Below, one piece after another: positions 1 through 61,247 of a stretch of 64,000 nucleotides of DNA. The DNA comes from Nymphaea colorata. Taxonomy: Eukaryota > Streptophyta > Magnoliopsida > Nymphaeales > Nymphaeaceae. Under the pieces are notes generated by a model that ran no database searches, was not told the DNA's origin, and was given only the letters and a program-made list of their open reading frames with translations. Positions within the stretch are counted from its first letter, which is position 1. Each line of letters opens with the position of its first letter. The translations under genes were made by a program, and so were the position numbers. The stretch lies in NCBI RefSeq assembly GCF_008831285.2, contig NC_045139.1, forward strand, positions 16,784,354 through 16,848,353, in the 5' to 3' direction.

Positions 1-12836
<12,836 letters not shown>

Positions 12837-35894: not shown

Positions 35895-36486
35895 TTACTG
35901 AATGATTGCATAAATGTTATCAAGTGCCGCAACAATTTGGTTATAGCACTCCTGCACTCGCCCGGCGTCCTTGCTTCGAGCTGCGTAGTCCAACTGTTCG
36001 ATGTAATGACCATTAAGCCTGAGAATGCCGCATTGAGGATGTATTGATTCGTAGATTGGTGATACGAGACAGTAAAACCAGCAATGGAGAACTTACTCTG
36101 GTGACGCTGTTGAACAAGTCCGAGTACAGCTTCCTGAGTTGAGGCCTCCTGCTGCCGGGCATTGACTGGATTATGGTGTACAGCTCCTGCCGCAGGCTTG
36201 AGGCGCTAGACCTCAGCGACTTCTGAGCTTCCTTCCACGACTCCAACTGGATCAAGTCCTTGAGCTCGACGAGTTCCTGAGCGTGGATTCTTGCTCTTGG
36301 CCGTGCCTCCTCCACCGTTAGATCCGGCGCCACGAACTTGAATTCTAAGCACAACCCACGTCCGGGACTCGAAAGGAAACATGGCGCCGATAGGAGAACG
36401 GTAGAGAGGGTTCTTCTACTTGTGGAGAAATTGGTGAGCGTTAAAGGAGTTCTTGTGAGGAATGGGGATTGAAGAAGAAACGCCAT
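35895..36486 (-). CDS. PQL3: PsbQ-like lumenal protein, PQL3 type, 2 exons
   Basis: Predicted exons on the minus strand are 36486-36097 and 35993-35895 with a GT-AG intron, giving 162 residues. The N-terminal part is Ser/Thr/Leu/Arg-rich without acids, a chloroplast transit peptide. The mature part is the four-helix PsbQ fold: EARPRARIHAQELVELKDLI, then ESWKEAQKSLRSSAS, RRPQLRKLYSDLFNSVTR and, in exon 2, LDYAARSKDAGRVQECYNQI. The RPQLRKLYS and LDYAAR segments fit PQL3. In Arabidopsis the PQL proteins attach to the lumenal side of the chloroplast NDH complex, which drives cyclic electron flow. The start is ambiguous: the frame is open further up, and the ATG at 36516 (MASPLI...) would add 10 residues. 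I prefer 36486 (A at -3, G at +4). PQL1 or PQL2 type is possible but fits less well. Confidence 0.82.
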
Positions 36487-37198
36487 GCTGGTTTTGTAGA
36501 TCAGTGGGGAGGCCATGCCAATGCTGGTCTGTAGATAAGCTTTGTTAATGGTGGGACCAAAGCCTTGGTCTGAATGATTCCATGCTTGTGGATGAGACTG
36601 AAATGGATTTGTTGTGGAGATGGGCACATGTGGTTTGGCTGTCTAAGATCTGCCATAGACCTAATTTCATTCATGGTTCCTGAGAAATCGAAAATTTTTT
36701 CGCCGATCTGAATCGAAATGGTGACAAATCTTTGTTTGGTGGCTTCCATTCAACGAAGTTGTTCATAATGGTACATACATGGGAACTGTGCAGTGGATTA
36801 TTTGAATTATTTCTATTCTCCAAATAATGGCGTTGGGAGATCATGAATGAAACTGCATAATGAATCTGCATGAATTTGATCAACAATCGGATTTGAATTA
36901 ATTTACCAGATCAGATTAAATGTATTCACAAGCAAAATGGGAGATATTGATGCCAATCCATTCAGATTGGGATTTATTGTATCCTACCCATAACCCAATT
37001 CATGTTCAAATCCAATCAGCATATATATATCATTGTGCAAAAAGTTAAGTGGGAATACTATATTAAAGGTGACATCTACCGAATACTTACGTGATGGAAC
37101 CAAATACGAATCTGAATTAAAAAAAAAAAATCCAAATCCACATCCCACAAAAAGTTTCCCCAAATCTTGACTTGGAACCTCCAAAATACAACCAAGAA

Positions 37199-52484: not shown

Positions 52485-54135
52485 ATGGATTCTGATGTTG
52501 AAGACATCAGAAATAAAGGTACCATGGAAAGGAAACGGTGTTTGCCTCCATGGATGCTGGGGATAACAGCTGCAGGCAAAGAAAAAACCTCTATGATAGC
52601 AGCTGGGGATGACATCAACGTATCTGTTGGTGATGAACAGCTCCAGCAAGTTGAGCAATCTGAGCATGTCTCAGGTGGCACAAAGAAAAATCTGGTATTA
52701 CCTCCTGTCAAAGATGCAAATGGAAATACAGTCAAAAGAATAAGGAAATCGAGCAAGAGAATTATTGAAAATGAAAATGTAGTTCAGCAACATGAGGATG
52801 TGCATGAAAGAAAGAAGAAACGCGAGAGTGTGATCACAGGAGAAGAGAACAATGCTCAAAACTTGAAGAGGAGATCGAAGACATATGGTTGTAGCGGCTT
52901 AGATAGTTCTGCAAGGCTTCCTTCATCTCAAAGTTGTAGCAGTGACGTAGAGTTGTCTTTGGATGATCTGGTGACCATTGCTGAAGAGGTATACCAACAA
53001 CTTGATTCAGAACTAGTTTATGAACTTTTAGAAAGCTTATAGATTCTTTTGTGTATTTGTATGCACACACACAGAGAGATGTGCATACGCAGGCAGCAAG
53101 AATTATGTTATATGTGTGCACATGAATGTGCATCTATGTATGTGTACTGTGTACATATGCCTTGTATGCATGTGTTTGTGCAGTTGAACCTTTTGGTGTA
53201 ACTTCAGTCACATGCTTAATGGGGAAGCTAGGCAAGGATATCTTGGTGTCGCATCCTATCATATGCAGGTATGTGTCCTGCATAATTGGAAAAGATTAGT
53301 TGAACATGGACATCAGATGTGCAAGACTAAGCATTAGAATCAATAGAAAACTGTCTAGAGATTAGCCTGTGTAACTCATGTATAATAAAGCAAACTGAGG
53401 CATGAGAAGCTTGTGGAGAGGATAGGATATGGTGAAAAATCATGGAAAGGCAATAAATCTGATTAACCAAAAAAAGATCTATAAATATGGTTAGGATTAC
53501 AGAAATGATGCTATGCTTGCCACATTCAGGATGTGGTATGGCATGTCCCTCATTCACTGTGGATATATTGCACAAAATCCAAAATTGTGAAGTAGCACTC
53601 AAAAGTTCTATTCCCCTATACCTCTACGAAGTAGTTCAGTAGACACTCATCTCTTGTAGTGTTCTATAGCTGTATTAGAAAATTACTACTTTTGTAGGTA
53701 TACTAAGTCAACTTTCTGCAGTATGTCAGGGAGGAAGCTGAGAAGGATGGTGAGAAAGAGGCAGGAAATGGGCTTCCATCCAAAAGTTCATCAAGCCAAT
53801 TGATCTCCAGACATGTGACGAAATCAGAGGCAGGTCACATTGGCATGGATTTTATTAAGAAAAGAAGCATAGTGAATGATGGTCTGCCAATAGAAAATAT
53901 GCAATGTACTGCTCCAGTAATAACTGGCAACGCTGCTGAGGACATGTTAAATATTTTCTTGGGTCCTGCAGTTTGGAAGCCTCGGGAGCACAAGAAGCTA
54001 GAACTTGCGGAGTACATACTACAGAGCCATAAGCTCAGCGAAAATCTGAACAAGGGAACCGTTGAGGGTGAAGAGGCTCCTGTAATGAAAAAGAAGGGCA
54101 GTCTTAAAGAAAAGATAGCCATGTTTCTGGATTGA
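52485..54135 (+). CDS. Unrecognised plant protein with APLF-like Ku-binding motif, 2 exons
   Basis: Predicted exons are 52485-52988 and 53722-54135 (GT-AG, phase 0), giving 305 residues. An in-frame TGA eight codons upstream makes 52485 the first usable ATG. The protein is mostly disordered and basic: RKRCLPPWMLG at residues 16-26, Lys/Arg-rich patches with probable nuclear signals (KRIRKSSKR, RKKKRE, LKRRSK), a short acidic/hydrophobic helix across the splice (LSLDDLVTIAEEYVREEAE), then a conserved-looking C-terminal block (AAEDMLNIFLGPAVWKP) and a basic last stretch KKKGSLKEKIAMFLD. I do not recognise the family. The RKRxLPxWM pattern is the Ku80-binding motif of animal APLF and, in a variant form, CYREN, so a DNA-repair role is possible but only inferred. 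An E2F-like promoter candidate lies 3.5 kb upstream. Confidence 0.72.
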
Positions 54136-55368: not shown

Positions 55369-58321
55369 TCAAAGAAGAAACCTTGGCAGACCAATTTTAC
55401 GACCAACTGTTTGCACGTCCCTTTGTGTTTGCTCTCTGAATTCCTGAAAAGTGAATTGCTTGTAAAGTGGAGGATCCTTACTGCTTCTGATCACCGACTC
55501 ATAAGATGGGCACAGAAAGTAAGCTATAGAAAACCTTTCCTTCCTCTGATTTGTCATTACTTTGTGTTCAACACTCTTATATGCTCCATTGCTCCACGCC
55601 TGCAATTACATTTTGACAATTAAGTATTTATCAGTTGATGTTCATCTGAAGCTATATAGTTACCGTAATACTAATATATGCCACCACAATTTCATATTGA
55701 ATCCTGTCAGATGCTGTTTTGACAATTAAGTATTTATCAGTTGATGTTCATCTGAAGCTATATAGTTACCGTAATACTAATATATGCCACCACAATTTCA
55801 TATTGAATCCTGTCAGATGCTGCATTGCAGCATTAGGTCTGAGCTATGACGGTGAAAATTGTTGGTACGACTCCTCTTTTTTTTTTTTCTTTTGTGGCTA
55901 AATGTAGCACCGGTTGGTGGTGTCGGGGTGTGATGTACACCTACCACGGTCATCAACGTACATCCCAATAGTTTGGTAAACATACCCTTCTTTGTGGAAC
56001 TGCATACAACAGTGCTACTTTATTCTAGAGAATATCATCACTAAGAATTGCGGGAACGATAACTGAAATGGTCACAACATCCATTTTTGCCTCTTTTTTG
56101 GTCTCAATAAAGTTGAAACGGGTGTCACTATCGACGGGAACATGACCATTTTCTCTGCTTTATACCCACTTCTGGATATACAGCAGTGCGTCTAAATTAT
56201 TGGACGATATCTGTGCTTCTGCACACTATCGAGCATGTGCCTTCCTAGATAGGAGGATGACGGTGAATTTTGCATGTGTCTCAGCATGTGCGTTTATGCG
56301 TACCTATGCATGCCACACAGACGTTTCTCTAGAACAAACCTGAAAAAGGTCGCCAATGTTTACAATCAAAGCATCTGGGTTCGGTTTGACAGATATCCAC
56401 TTGGAGTCCTTCATCAGCTGCAAACCCCCAACCTCATCTTGATGGAGGATGGTGAGGAAATCGCTATCTGTGTGAGGCATGAGTCCAAAGACTTTGGAAG
56501 AGACGGGGCACGGTGGGTACCGATTCAGACGAAGGAAACAAGTGTTCTCATTGCAATGTTCAGTGAAATACTGCTTGCTTTGGCCCAGATTCTCTGCTAG
56601 CTCTGCTGCTAAAGTCATAGCTAATTCTGACATTTCTGCTGCAAACTCTGCCATCACCATTCTGAACAGGAAAACAGGAAAAGGTTCATTATTAGTAGCC
56701 CTGAATGTCCTTCCTAGTTCTGCTTGGAAGTGTTCACGCAACCATATCTGTGTGTGCGTGTGTGCGTGTATGCGTGTGCGCGCGTGTGTCTGTGCATGCA
56801 TTTTTACTTTCTAATCTATAAGCAAGTCCATCCAAATTCCTGTAGCTGCAGACTTGTGCTTGTGTGCCTTTGCTGACGCTGGAATGCTTATGTTTCTAGC
56901 AGTGTTTTCCCTGCTGAGATGGTAGAAAGTTTGAGAAATGATGTGCCCTAGGGCTGCCAGGTGGACCTCAGGTAACCCCAAAAAATGGTGGACCTTCCTC
57001 ATTGTCTGCATCATGTGATTGAAAGTGTGAGACCACTTTCTACTTTTCACCTGAGCATGTTTCAGCACAGAATTGGTGGGGTACCATGCCTGACACTCCA
57101 CTGCCTTCCGGTCTGAGGATCACGATGTCATCAATATGACTTTGAGGACTGGACAGTGTCTTCAGAAATTGTGGAATATGGAGAAGTGCTGTGTTCAATC
57201 ACTATCGTTAGCGTGAGATCCCGGACGGTTTTGTGCCATCCCAAAGGTTGGCTCTTGAGAACTTGAAAACCTACTTATGTTTCACTATCGCATTATTCTC
57301 CTATTTATTTTTGAAGTTTGACAACAATATGCTTATGTTTTGGCAGTACTAGAAAAACATGCTTCAGTTGGACCTTTCCTGCCTTTTTCTGTGTAATGCA
57401 GTTAAGCAAGAGAAATCAAAACATTTCATCATAATTTGAGTGTGTTTTTGTAAAATGTTCATCTATTTTTTAACTAAACAAATCGCAGATATCCACTCTA
57501 AGAACTAATATGCGAAAAAGAAAATGGTAAACTCCGAGTATTTTCTTAATATTAATTCGATGTAATTCCAAAGAGAAAATGGCTTGTGTTGAAGGGAAGT
57601 TAACGCAAGAACGCGGATTAAGCTGTATATTTTTTGTCCTTTGAATCACCGTGACAGTACATCTACGCCACCTTATAGCAAGAGATGCAGCGGTTGAATA
57701 CGCGGATCCTACTTGTGGTGCTTATTTAGAATGGTGCGATTACCAAAGTATAGACGGTGAAGGAGTGGTAACAACATGAGTTGATGAGTTCAAATAAGCA
57801 AGCTAGTGAAGAGAGAAAAAAAGGGAGATGTGCTAAAGGAGAACCATCCAAGAGGTGTGTAAGAAATTTCCATACCTCAACGACTGTAATTCCTCTCCGT
57901 AGCAGTTATTCTGTGGAACTTTCTGCAAAGAAATATGAAATGCTTCTGACCATGAAAACTGCTCCACAGAGGTTGCAGAAGGTGCTCCCCATCTATAAGA
58001 ACCATTCAAGAGTTTCCCATCTGCTTTTCTCTCAAATGGTAGCTCAAAAATCTTAACTTGCTCCTCCCTCATTTTGCATAGAAGCTCATGACTTATCCCA
58101 TGGTTCAAAACCTGAAAGAAGCCCCACTTGCTAGCTGCATCGACAATCTTCTTTCTGCATTTCATTTTTTCTTTCTTATCCTCGCCAAATAAGCCTCTCA
58201 GATCAATCAATGGCAGCTCACACTCCTTCGCGTTTTCTTCGCTGTCTACCAACTTCATAGAGATTTTACTGTATTGACAAATGAAAGGTGGATAAGAAAG
58301 TCTGTTCCCCAGAGAACCCAT
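55369..58321 (-). CDS. GA2OX8: Gibberellin 2-beta-dioxygenase, C20-GA class (GA2ox8-like), 3 exons
   Basis: A 2-oxoglutarate/Fe(II) dioxygenase that 2-beta-hydroxylates gibberellin precursors and so inactivates them. Minus-strand exons are 58321-57876, 56661-56340 and 55599-55369, giving 332 residues, the family norm. The N-terminal DIOX_N domain has ELPLIDLRGL and WGFFQVLNHGIS (66-76). GSYRWGAPSATS and FSWSEAFHI match the C20-GA2ox (GA2ox7/8) class rather than the C19 class. Iron ligands are His212 and Asp214 (HTDSD) and His268 (SVEHKV); the 2-oxoglutarate site is Arg278-x-Ser280. LNRYPPCP and GDLFQAWSNG are also conserved. The N-terminus has no targeting signal, so the enzyme is expected in the cytosol. 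The frame is open to an ATG at 58483, but 58321 gives the usual length. Intron 2 contains an exact 106-bp tandem duplication, and a 4-codon upstream ORF precedes the start. Confidence 0.95.
55611..55822. repeat. Exact 106-bp tandem duplication in GA2ox intron 2
   Basis: Copy 1 (55611-55716) and copy 2 (55717-55822), both starting TTTTGACAATTAAG and ending GTCAGATGCTG, are identical over all 106 bases. It begins 11 bases beyond the exon 3 boundary, just inside intron 2 on the acceptor side. Either very recent or an assembly artefact. Confidence 0.95.
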
Positions 58322-58341
58322 GTTTTGATTTTCTTCAACTG

Positions 58342-58353
58342 TTATTGTTCCAT
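58342..58353 (-). promoter_or_regulatory. Minimal upstream ORF (Met-Glu-Gln-stop) before GA2ox
   Basis: ATG GAA CAA TAA in a strong context (ACCATGG) ends 20 bases before the chosen ATG at 58321, out of frame with it. Its presence in the mRNA depends on the transcript start. Confidence 0.4.
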
Positions 58354-58483
58354 GGTCTCGTATATAAAGAGCTTTATGTGCCAGCAAGGACAAGGAAAGG
58401 AACATTAGTTTTGTTAGAGACTTGTCGAGTGTGGGAGGCAGAGGAACACTGAGTGAATGAGATGCAGCTCGTACCTGTGACAA

Positions 58484-61247
58484 GTGTCAAAAGAAGAGTG
58501 TTGATTGAGAAATCAGAAGCCAGAGAGATCAAAAAGACAGGAAGGAAAAGGTGAAAGTGTGCAGTGACGTTTCAGTCAAGAAAGATACACAGTTTGGAAA
58601 TTGGTAGGGTTCCTTTTTGTGCTTTCGGAGTCGGAAATGGCTAAATAATTTGCTCGCTTTTGTGGGCAGTGTTGAATACACTGACTGCTCTTTTCTGGTA
58701 AGGGGACAGGGCATGGTCCCAAAATGACGAATCATATCACGTGGAGATCAGTAGAAATAAGCGAATAATAACACTGTATTTATTACCATATCATCATCTT
58801 TATCGGCAAGAAGAAGCTGCCACAAATTTCCCTCGTTTCTGGGCTGTAAAAATGGTCCAGTATCTGATCTGGGTTCAAGTCTGATTAATCAGATTTGATA
58901 AGAAATGTCTAAAGTAGACAAGAAATCGAATTCTGTTTAGCATTTTCATATGGATATTTGCATCAGATTACGTTTGACATTTGGATATCATTTTGCATTT
59001 GTACATGAGTCTAAATTTAACTGTCAGGTTTATAATTTACACCTTCACTTATTTGTTGGTCCTGAAATAATGCACTTGTACGCGATGAAGTCATCAGAGG
59101 AAACTAGCTGTCAGAATCTCATCTAGAATCTTAACATCAACATCATGGAGTCGGTTTACCCTTCCATGCATTATACTCCATGATACGATGAGGTTAATTA
59201 AATTCGACCCAGCGGCTTGCTCATGGTTGAAGAAACAAGAATTGTTTCAAACACAAGCTGAAGCCTTTTGCACTAGCGCAAAAAAGAAGTTTGTTATGTG
59301 CGAGTATAATTTGGTGAACACTTTTAGTGCTGTTTTCCATTTTGAATTCTCAAAGCATCAACTATTTGTGTTGTAAAAAGAGTGCACCAATATTCAAGTT
59401 CAAGTTGAAGCATAGCGAAAGCGTCATCCGGATGCACTGAAAGCAGGCCTGATTGAAGGATAGATGGCATTGGTTCTCTTCTTGATTTATACTCCTATCA
59501 CCCTAGTATACTTTTCCAATTAGCATCCAATGTCTCCGTTAGGAATAAGAATCTCGAGAAACAAAAGAACAGAAATTCCAGTTCCGACTGAGTGTGAAAA
59601 GCAGAAAGGGGCCAAAGAAGCAAAAGGAATCTAACTTTTCCATTATGAATGTTATCATGTGACATTGCGAATTCGGAAAAGTATTATATATTGGCAACGT
59701 CGTGCGGCGGCTCATGTGCCATATAGTATTTATTCATAATGCCATGCCTTTTTTCTCCACCACTTCAGACAGCGAGTCAAAAAAAGTACAAATGTTGCGT
59801 GTTGAATCTAGAGGTATGGCTTCTCGTGTCATTGACCATAAACAGGCCTTGTGACTAATGCTGCTCTTCAAATGAATCGAACTCTCTCTCTGTGAGTACC
59901 CCCGCGTGAGAGAGAAAATAAAAGCCTTTTTTTTTACATACAACTTTCGACGGTGTTGAAAGACTCCGTGCTTACGTTATTAGCTAAGTGTCAAATCATC
60001 AAATTGTGCTCGATATTCAACAGAAAAGCAAATACCGTAAGAAGGCAAGACAGCTGCACCATCTATAAAAAGCTACCCAACATATTGCACTAGTGTCTGA
60101 TCCTGCCATTTTCTATCAATGGAGAAGAGGAAAGTAGAAAAGCTTAATTTTAAGAGGCATAGTGCAAGACTGAAGAAACGCGACAAGGACAACGTCGGCA
60201 TTAGCACCTGCCCAAACAGAAAAAGTTCCCCTCTATTCGCTTCTGGATCAATCTTAAATATATGTTAAAGCAATATTTCCCAAAGAAGTCAACTCGTCCA
60301 CACTCATCATCATATAAATGCTACCAAAACATGGATAAATAAGAGAAAACACGGGGCACGCAAGACATCAACTTTGCAAAACAAGAGAAGCACTTCCGAG
60401 AGTAGAAATGGGGAGTTGGACCTAACAAAAAAACATGCAAAGATACATTTTGCGGTTCAATCTAATAGGTGGATGTCCACTAAGATGCGAACGAACTTTT
60501 ACAAGCATAAATGGATGCTAAAGAAATTGTGCCACGATCTCAAGCTAAGAATTAAAGGGAAAGATTCCAGGAAAAAAAAAACTACCAAATCTTAACAGAA
60601 CCAAAATCTCTCATTATTGTAAGACAGAAGATTCTACTACAGCCCCATCCACCAGGTTAGCTGGCTGGACTCGAGAAGATCTTCAAGCTGAAAGGTCCAC
60701 GTGTCGATGCACAAGGTGCATCTCTTGACATAATCTGGTGCAGCCTACCCACCCATAGATCAAGAAAGGCAAAAGAATCTTGGAAAGCATTCAAGAATCA
60801 ATAATTGGGGCTCCTTTTGCTCCGTGACCAAGCACCATTGGGTAAAAAGTACATGATCATCTAAAGTCGGTCATCAGACCACAAGGGATATTTTATCAGG
60901 ATTTGGAGGACCAAAATATCATTGTAATCTTTTCCCTAGGGATGGGGAAACATGAATTGGAACATATTCTCTCACTGAGAATGTACAAAGATGAGTTCAC
61001 GATGGGAAGCTTTCTGATAATTAACCGAAACTCAATAAAAAATAATTGAAAATAAATAGTTCACCTCCAAGAGAAAACAAAGAATCGGTTTATCCAAGAG
61101 GTACCAGTGGTTACATGTAGGACCTGTTCTCTCAACAAAAAGGAGTACAACTAAAAGCAAAACCCAGGCAAACCATTTATCCGACTTTCAAAACTTCAGG
61201 CACCAGTGATTCACATGCGGACTGGTGGTAATAAGCCAGCCCTCTTA
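58484..61247. other. Spacer between GA2ox promoter and eIF3a 3' end
   Basis: The left part is the GA2ox promoter and the right part (from about 60600) the eIF3a 3' UTR. A 49-codon basic frame (60120-60269, plus strand) and a 73-codon Lys-rich frame (60374-60595) exist but match nothing I know. No element or repeat of note. Confidence 0.5.

Follow-up and report, generated by a model that had tools for sequence, protein, structure and literature searches.

Among proteins that bind Ku, the APLF-type Ku-binding motif (A-KBM) has been proven, in the parts of the literature available to us, for APLF, for WRN, which has two, and for MRI/CYREN, with peptide letters given for the WRN-nA, WRN-cA and MRI-A versions (PMC4831024). 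The key residues of the APLF motif are R182-K183-R184 and W189 (PMC5207133), while CYREN is described as a largely disordered Ku-binding protein that suppresses classical end joining during S and G2 (PMC13276856), and that carries its A-type motif at its N-terminus (PMC8224183). For plants, the accessible portion of one report describes PAXX as binding both KU70 and KU80 (PMC12707071); this paralogue of XRCC4 and XLF has in animals a Ku motif, given in the accessible text as FKSKKPAGGVDFDET, that has no LPxW, unlike the plant motif evaluated here. Our search of the literature, outside of which most subscription journals lie, found no plant A-KBM protein, and this is weak evidence of absence.

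Against this background we evaluated a candidate A-KBM protein encoded in a 64,000-nucleotide stretch of plant DNA (hereafter the window; C2:16784354-16848353 of a genome assembly with 407,766,735 bases in 783 contigs). The gene model has two exons on the + strand (52485-54135) and a predicted product of 305 aa. Exon 1 (52485-52988, +, residues 1-168) is open in frame from an ATG at 52485 to a GT donor, and exon 2 (53722-54135, +, residues 169-305 and the stop) is open to a TGA, with a phase 0 GT-AG intron between them (52989-53721, +; donor GAG/GTATAC, acceptor CTGCAG/TATGTC) that is inferred from the sequence. Open stretches of these lengths would arise by chance, at the stop frequency of the window, with probabilities of about 9e-5 (exon 1) and 5e-4 (exon 2), and GC content is 0.42 and 0.44 in the two exons, 0.37 in the intron, and 0.35 and 0.36 in the 500 bases to either side. 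A second in-frame ATG (M14; 52524-52526, +) has a stronger start context than M1 (ACCATGG vs CACATGG), so the true product may start there, in which case the motif would run from the third residue of the real protein (residues 3-12). Use of both ATGs would yield products that differ in the distance of the motif from the N-terminus.

The encoded protein is likely mostly disordered: disorder-promoting residues make up 67% of it, and single-sequence AlphaFold2 models, which are often poor for any protein, reached a mean pLDDT of 57.6 for the exon 1 frame and 39.7 for the exon 2 frame. An earlier note on this DNA had described the remainder of the protein as disordered and basic, and of this description the disorder holds up whereas the net basic charge does not, there being 46 K+R vs 49 D+E. 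The exon 1 model contains one predicted short helix at residues ~159-169 (LDDLVTIAEE = 159-168; 52959-52988, +; block pLDDT 73 and 84). The protein is presumably expressed and nuclear. Scanning Pfam with E values up to 10 gave no family membership, with the qualification that HMMER filters are able to hide weak matches, and returned just two rows, both of which we rejected as relatives: VGLL4 (E 0.035, 14.6 bits vs a cut-off of 27) and WEF-hand (E 2.6). The family annotation of unrelated function that the earlier note had named as evidence against its reading was thus looked for in Pfam (E up to 10) and not found. In the PDB at E up to 10 no solved-structure relative was found for either the whole protein or a 27-residue peptide. 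Within the genome no second copy of the gene was found at E up to 1e-3, the matches being its own two exons (21 candidates scored), and among viral contigs 29 stretches fitted a pattern, with 0 confirmed as relatives.

The motif itself, RKRCLPPWML, lies at residues 16-25 as counted from the ATG at 52485 and is encoded at 52530-52559 (+), just as the earlier note had read it, except that the span given there (52530-52562) starts correctly and ends one codon too far, taking in G26. Its assignment to the APLF class also proved right in register, since the basic patch R16-K17-R18 sits at W-7 to W-5 and is followed by LPxWM, so that these three residues and W23 are spaced exactly as R182-K183-R184 and W189 are in APLF (human residues 182-192). 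The minimal core R-x-x-P-x-W is present as R18-C-L-P21-P-W23, and RKRCLPPWML qualifies by sequence as an A-KBM. Compared with WRN-cA, the plant peptide differs at 2 of 9 places (ERKRCLPPW vs ERKRRLPVW in the accessible text of PMC4831024), and RKRCLPPWM shares 6/9 residues with WRN-cA and 4/9 with each of WRN-nA and MRI-A. In APLF the motif lies within a disordered region; the plant segment is modelled as coil (block pLDDT 61 and 54, from the single-sequence approach noted above as often poor) and may be disordered, which is what one would expect of a Ku-binding motif. Beyond the motif the proteins differ, as APLF combines an FHA domain with zinc fingers and WRN is an exonuclease/helicase, whereas the Pfam scan at E up to 10 gave no row for any such domain in the plant protein.

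How far this likeness exceeds chance depends on how much of the motif is counted. The minimal core RxxPxW is common, occurring 9 times in the six frames of the window, about 400 times by expectation in a plant proteome (assumed residue frequencies) and in more than 600 human proteins according to the accessible text of PMC4831024, so only the long motif carries evidential weight. By summed BLOSUM62 score against the published WRN-nA, WRN-cA and MRI-A peptides, RKRCLPPWM (score 85) came first among the 78,312 nine-residue windows that the six frames of the window contain, the next reaching 65, and when the protein was shuffled 20,000 times no shuffle reached 85 (largest 79). The pattern [KR]3xLPxW[MLF] was seen once vs 0.004 expected over the same six frames, and in a plant proteome of 31,500 proteins, again with assumed residue frequencies, the expectation is 0.18 for this pattern and 0.02 for RKRxLPxW[MLF]. 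RKR may still serve nuclear localisation or be some other basic patch, with LPPWM an unrelated hydrophobic stretch and neither having anything to do with Ku. The commonness of the core and the further basic clusters in the protein speak for such a coincidence, and all of these chance figures overstate the surprise because the motif was chosen once it had already been noticed; the rarity of the long motif in exact register speaks against it, and on balance we regard chance likeness as fairly unlikely.

Support of a more independent kind comes from Ku80 in the same genome. Searching the genome with the Ku barrel family yielded 4 matches, of which two lie on contig C4, one on C3 and one on C118. 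The joined peptide of the C4 gene matches Pfam Ku_N (8.6e-10) and Ku (4.5e-13), and all 9 of its PDB matches at E up to 0.001 are Ku80 (XRCC5; best 4.4e-17), so that the C4 gene is Ku80 by sequence; the C3 gene was judged by eye to be Ku70. The fourth match (C118:8688-9278), which is crossed by 2 TAG and 4 TAA, belongs to a further Ku-type gene with Pfam Ku_N and Ku that adjoins a rhomboid gene on a 75-kb contig of the plant assembly (region C118:3000-12900); this Ku-type gene may come from a protist contaminant, have short introns or use another code.

To compare the docking site, we took the seven published A-KBM-site positions that fall within the reliable part of the alignment (68, 74, 106, 109, 112, 115 and 119), which the accessible portions of three papers give as L68, Y74 and I112 (PMC5207133), D106, D109, I112 and Q119 (PMC13377182), and L68, I112 and M115 (PMC8224183). 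At these positions plant Ku80 has L, Y, D, D, V, M and I, respectively, an identity with human Ku80 of 5/7 vs 28/95 over the whole stretch with the seven included (binomial P 0.027), the two changes being I112 to V and Q119 to I. Beyond residue 119, in the region of the XLF-type site, the global alignment is gappy, and I149/I150 (PMC8224183, accessible portion) were left outside the count for this reason, with L and I placed opposite them. Of these positions, L68 is one where the change L68R lowers motif recruitment (PMC4831024) and I112 one where I112R leaves WRN without stimulation by Ku, while D106 and D109 face the arginine of the motif (both PMC13377182); all four are kept or conservatively changed in the plant protein. 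On the ligand side, the contacts described for the WRN complex are made by R13, C15, W18 and M19 (PMC13377182, accessible portion), the plant equivalents of which are R18, L20, W23 and M24. The A-KBM site of plant Ku80 thus appears largely kept, which we consider modest evidence and yet the best independent support for the Ku reading; the DFLDA stretch or its helix may also be conserved for folding alone.

Taking motif and site together, we propose that a mostly disordered protein docks on Ku80 via an N-terminal APLF-type motif and works like CYREN or APLF, to which we assign a probability of about 0.55. Weighing against this proposal are the change of Q119, next to the key tryptophan, to I in plant Ku80, the commonness of the minimal core and the weak C-terminal likeness described below. 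Under the proposal, the motif would dock the predicted protein on Ku80, the docked protein would serve Ku as a flexible tether or modulator in the manner of animal CYREN/MRI or APLF, and the mid-protein helix and the C-terminus would remain available for contacts with other repair or telomere proteins; such modulation could go in either direction, helping or restraining joining. A tether or modulator role is suggested by the CYREN-like build of the protein, that is an N-terminal motif, disorder, a short helix and a hydrophobic end. The earlier note had suggested a Ku-associated end-joining or telomere factor, and this Ku interpretation is partly supported, with Ku binding itself and a part in end joining or at telomeres both putative. 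Alternatively, the motif could be a conserved plant motif that binds some partner other than Ku, given that the protein has no Pfam family and that the motif is its sole tie to DNA repair, but its resemblance to established Ku80 ligands would then have to be coincidence, as would the preservation of the Ku80 site, and we hold this alternative to be improbable.

If Ku80 docking is right, the closest comparison is with CYREN/MRI, in that the plant protein has its A-KBM near the N-terminus (residues 16-25, or 3-12 from M14) and is probably also largely disordered, although its 305 aa contrast with the 157 aa given for CYREN-1 in the accessible text of PMC13276856. At the other end of the protein, where CYREN/MRI has an XLF-like motif made up of a basic patch followed by phenylalanine, lies SLKEKIAMFLD (54100-54132, +), a weak candidate that shares 3/11 residues with MRI-X (VLKYVREIFFS). 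Its score against MRI-X is matched or beaten by 25/742 ORF ends in the window (its own included) and 127/5,000 shuffled tails, while scores as high as its own were reached by 129/742 ORF ends and 1,228/5,000 shuffled tails against XLF, and by 77/742 and 939/5,000, respectively, against WRN-X. The C-terminus thus gives a hint of resemblance, at about the 3% level, to the CYREN/MRI version of the XLF-like motif only, and the loose likeness to the second Ku-binding type that had been suggested earlier survives weakly for MRI-X and falls away for XLF and WRN-X. A CYREN/MRI family profile was not among the two Pfam rows at E up to 10, a result to be read with the same filter limit of HMMER in mind. 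That the protein is a true, very diverged CYREN/MRI homologue, with N-terminal A-KBM, helix and XLF-like C-terminus, would fit the same order of elements and a tail nearer MRI-X than XLF or WRN-X, but we consider it very improbable given its roughly doubled length relative to CYREN-1, Pfam rows (VGLL4 and WEF-hand) of which neither belongs to the CYREN/MRI family, and the repeated origin of short motifs in disordered proteins. The plant protein may instead, by analogy, work like APLF and CYREN/MRI, and we see no evidence of descent from either.

Should a plant A-KBM protein of this kind exist, it would point to the outer groove of Ku80 as an ancient docking port common to animals and plants, and it would give a handle on gene targeting, on DNA integration and on the choice of repair route in plants. 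In the accessible part of a review, many plant telomeres are described as blunt-ended and Ku-protected, a seemingly paradoxical arrangement given the end-joining role of Ku, and these blunt ends depend on Ku without being joined (PMC6356271). Because such telomeres need Ku yet stay unjoined, a restraining Ku ligand would, speculatively, be most interesting there. A bolder reading, which we think quite unlikely on present evidence, is that a disordered Ku80 ligand resembling CYREN exists in flowering plants and masks Ku or redirects it; if true, it would help explain how Ku sits on blunt-ended telomeres without joining them, as well as the choice between end joining and recombination. The predicted protein is a candidate plant partner of Ku that lends itself to testing.

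Pfam assigns four exons in the neighbourhood of the gene to ordinary plant families. Downstream, on the other strand, are two exons of a 2-oxoglutarate-dependent dioxygenase (56304-56810 and 57833-58486, -; DIOX_N and 2OG-FeII_Oxy), and elsewhere in the window are an exon with an FAD-binding domain (6013-6705, +), which we take to be like cytokinin dehydrogenase, and a PsbQ-type protein (36013-36642, -). Between the gene and the dioxygenase exons, at 55612-55822, two adjoining near-identical copies of about 105 bases each (...GACAATTAAGTATTTATCAGTTGATG...) were noticed by eye.
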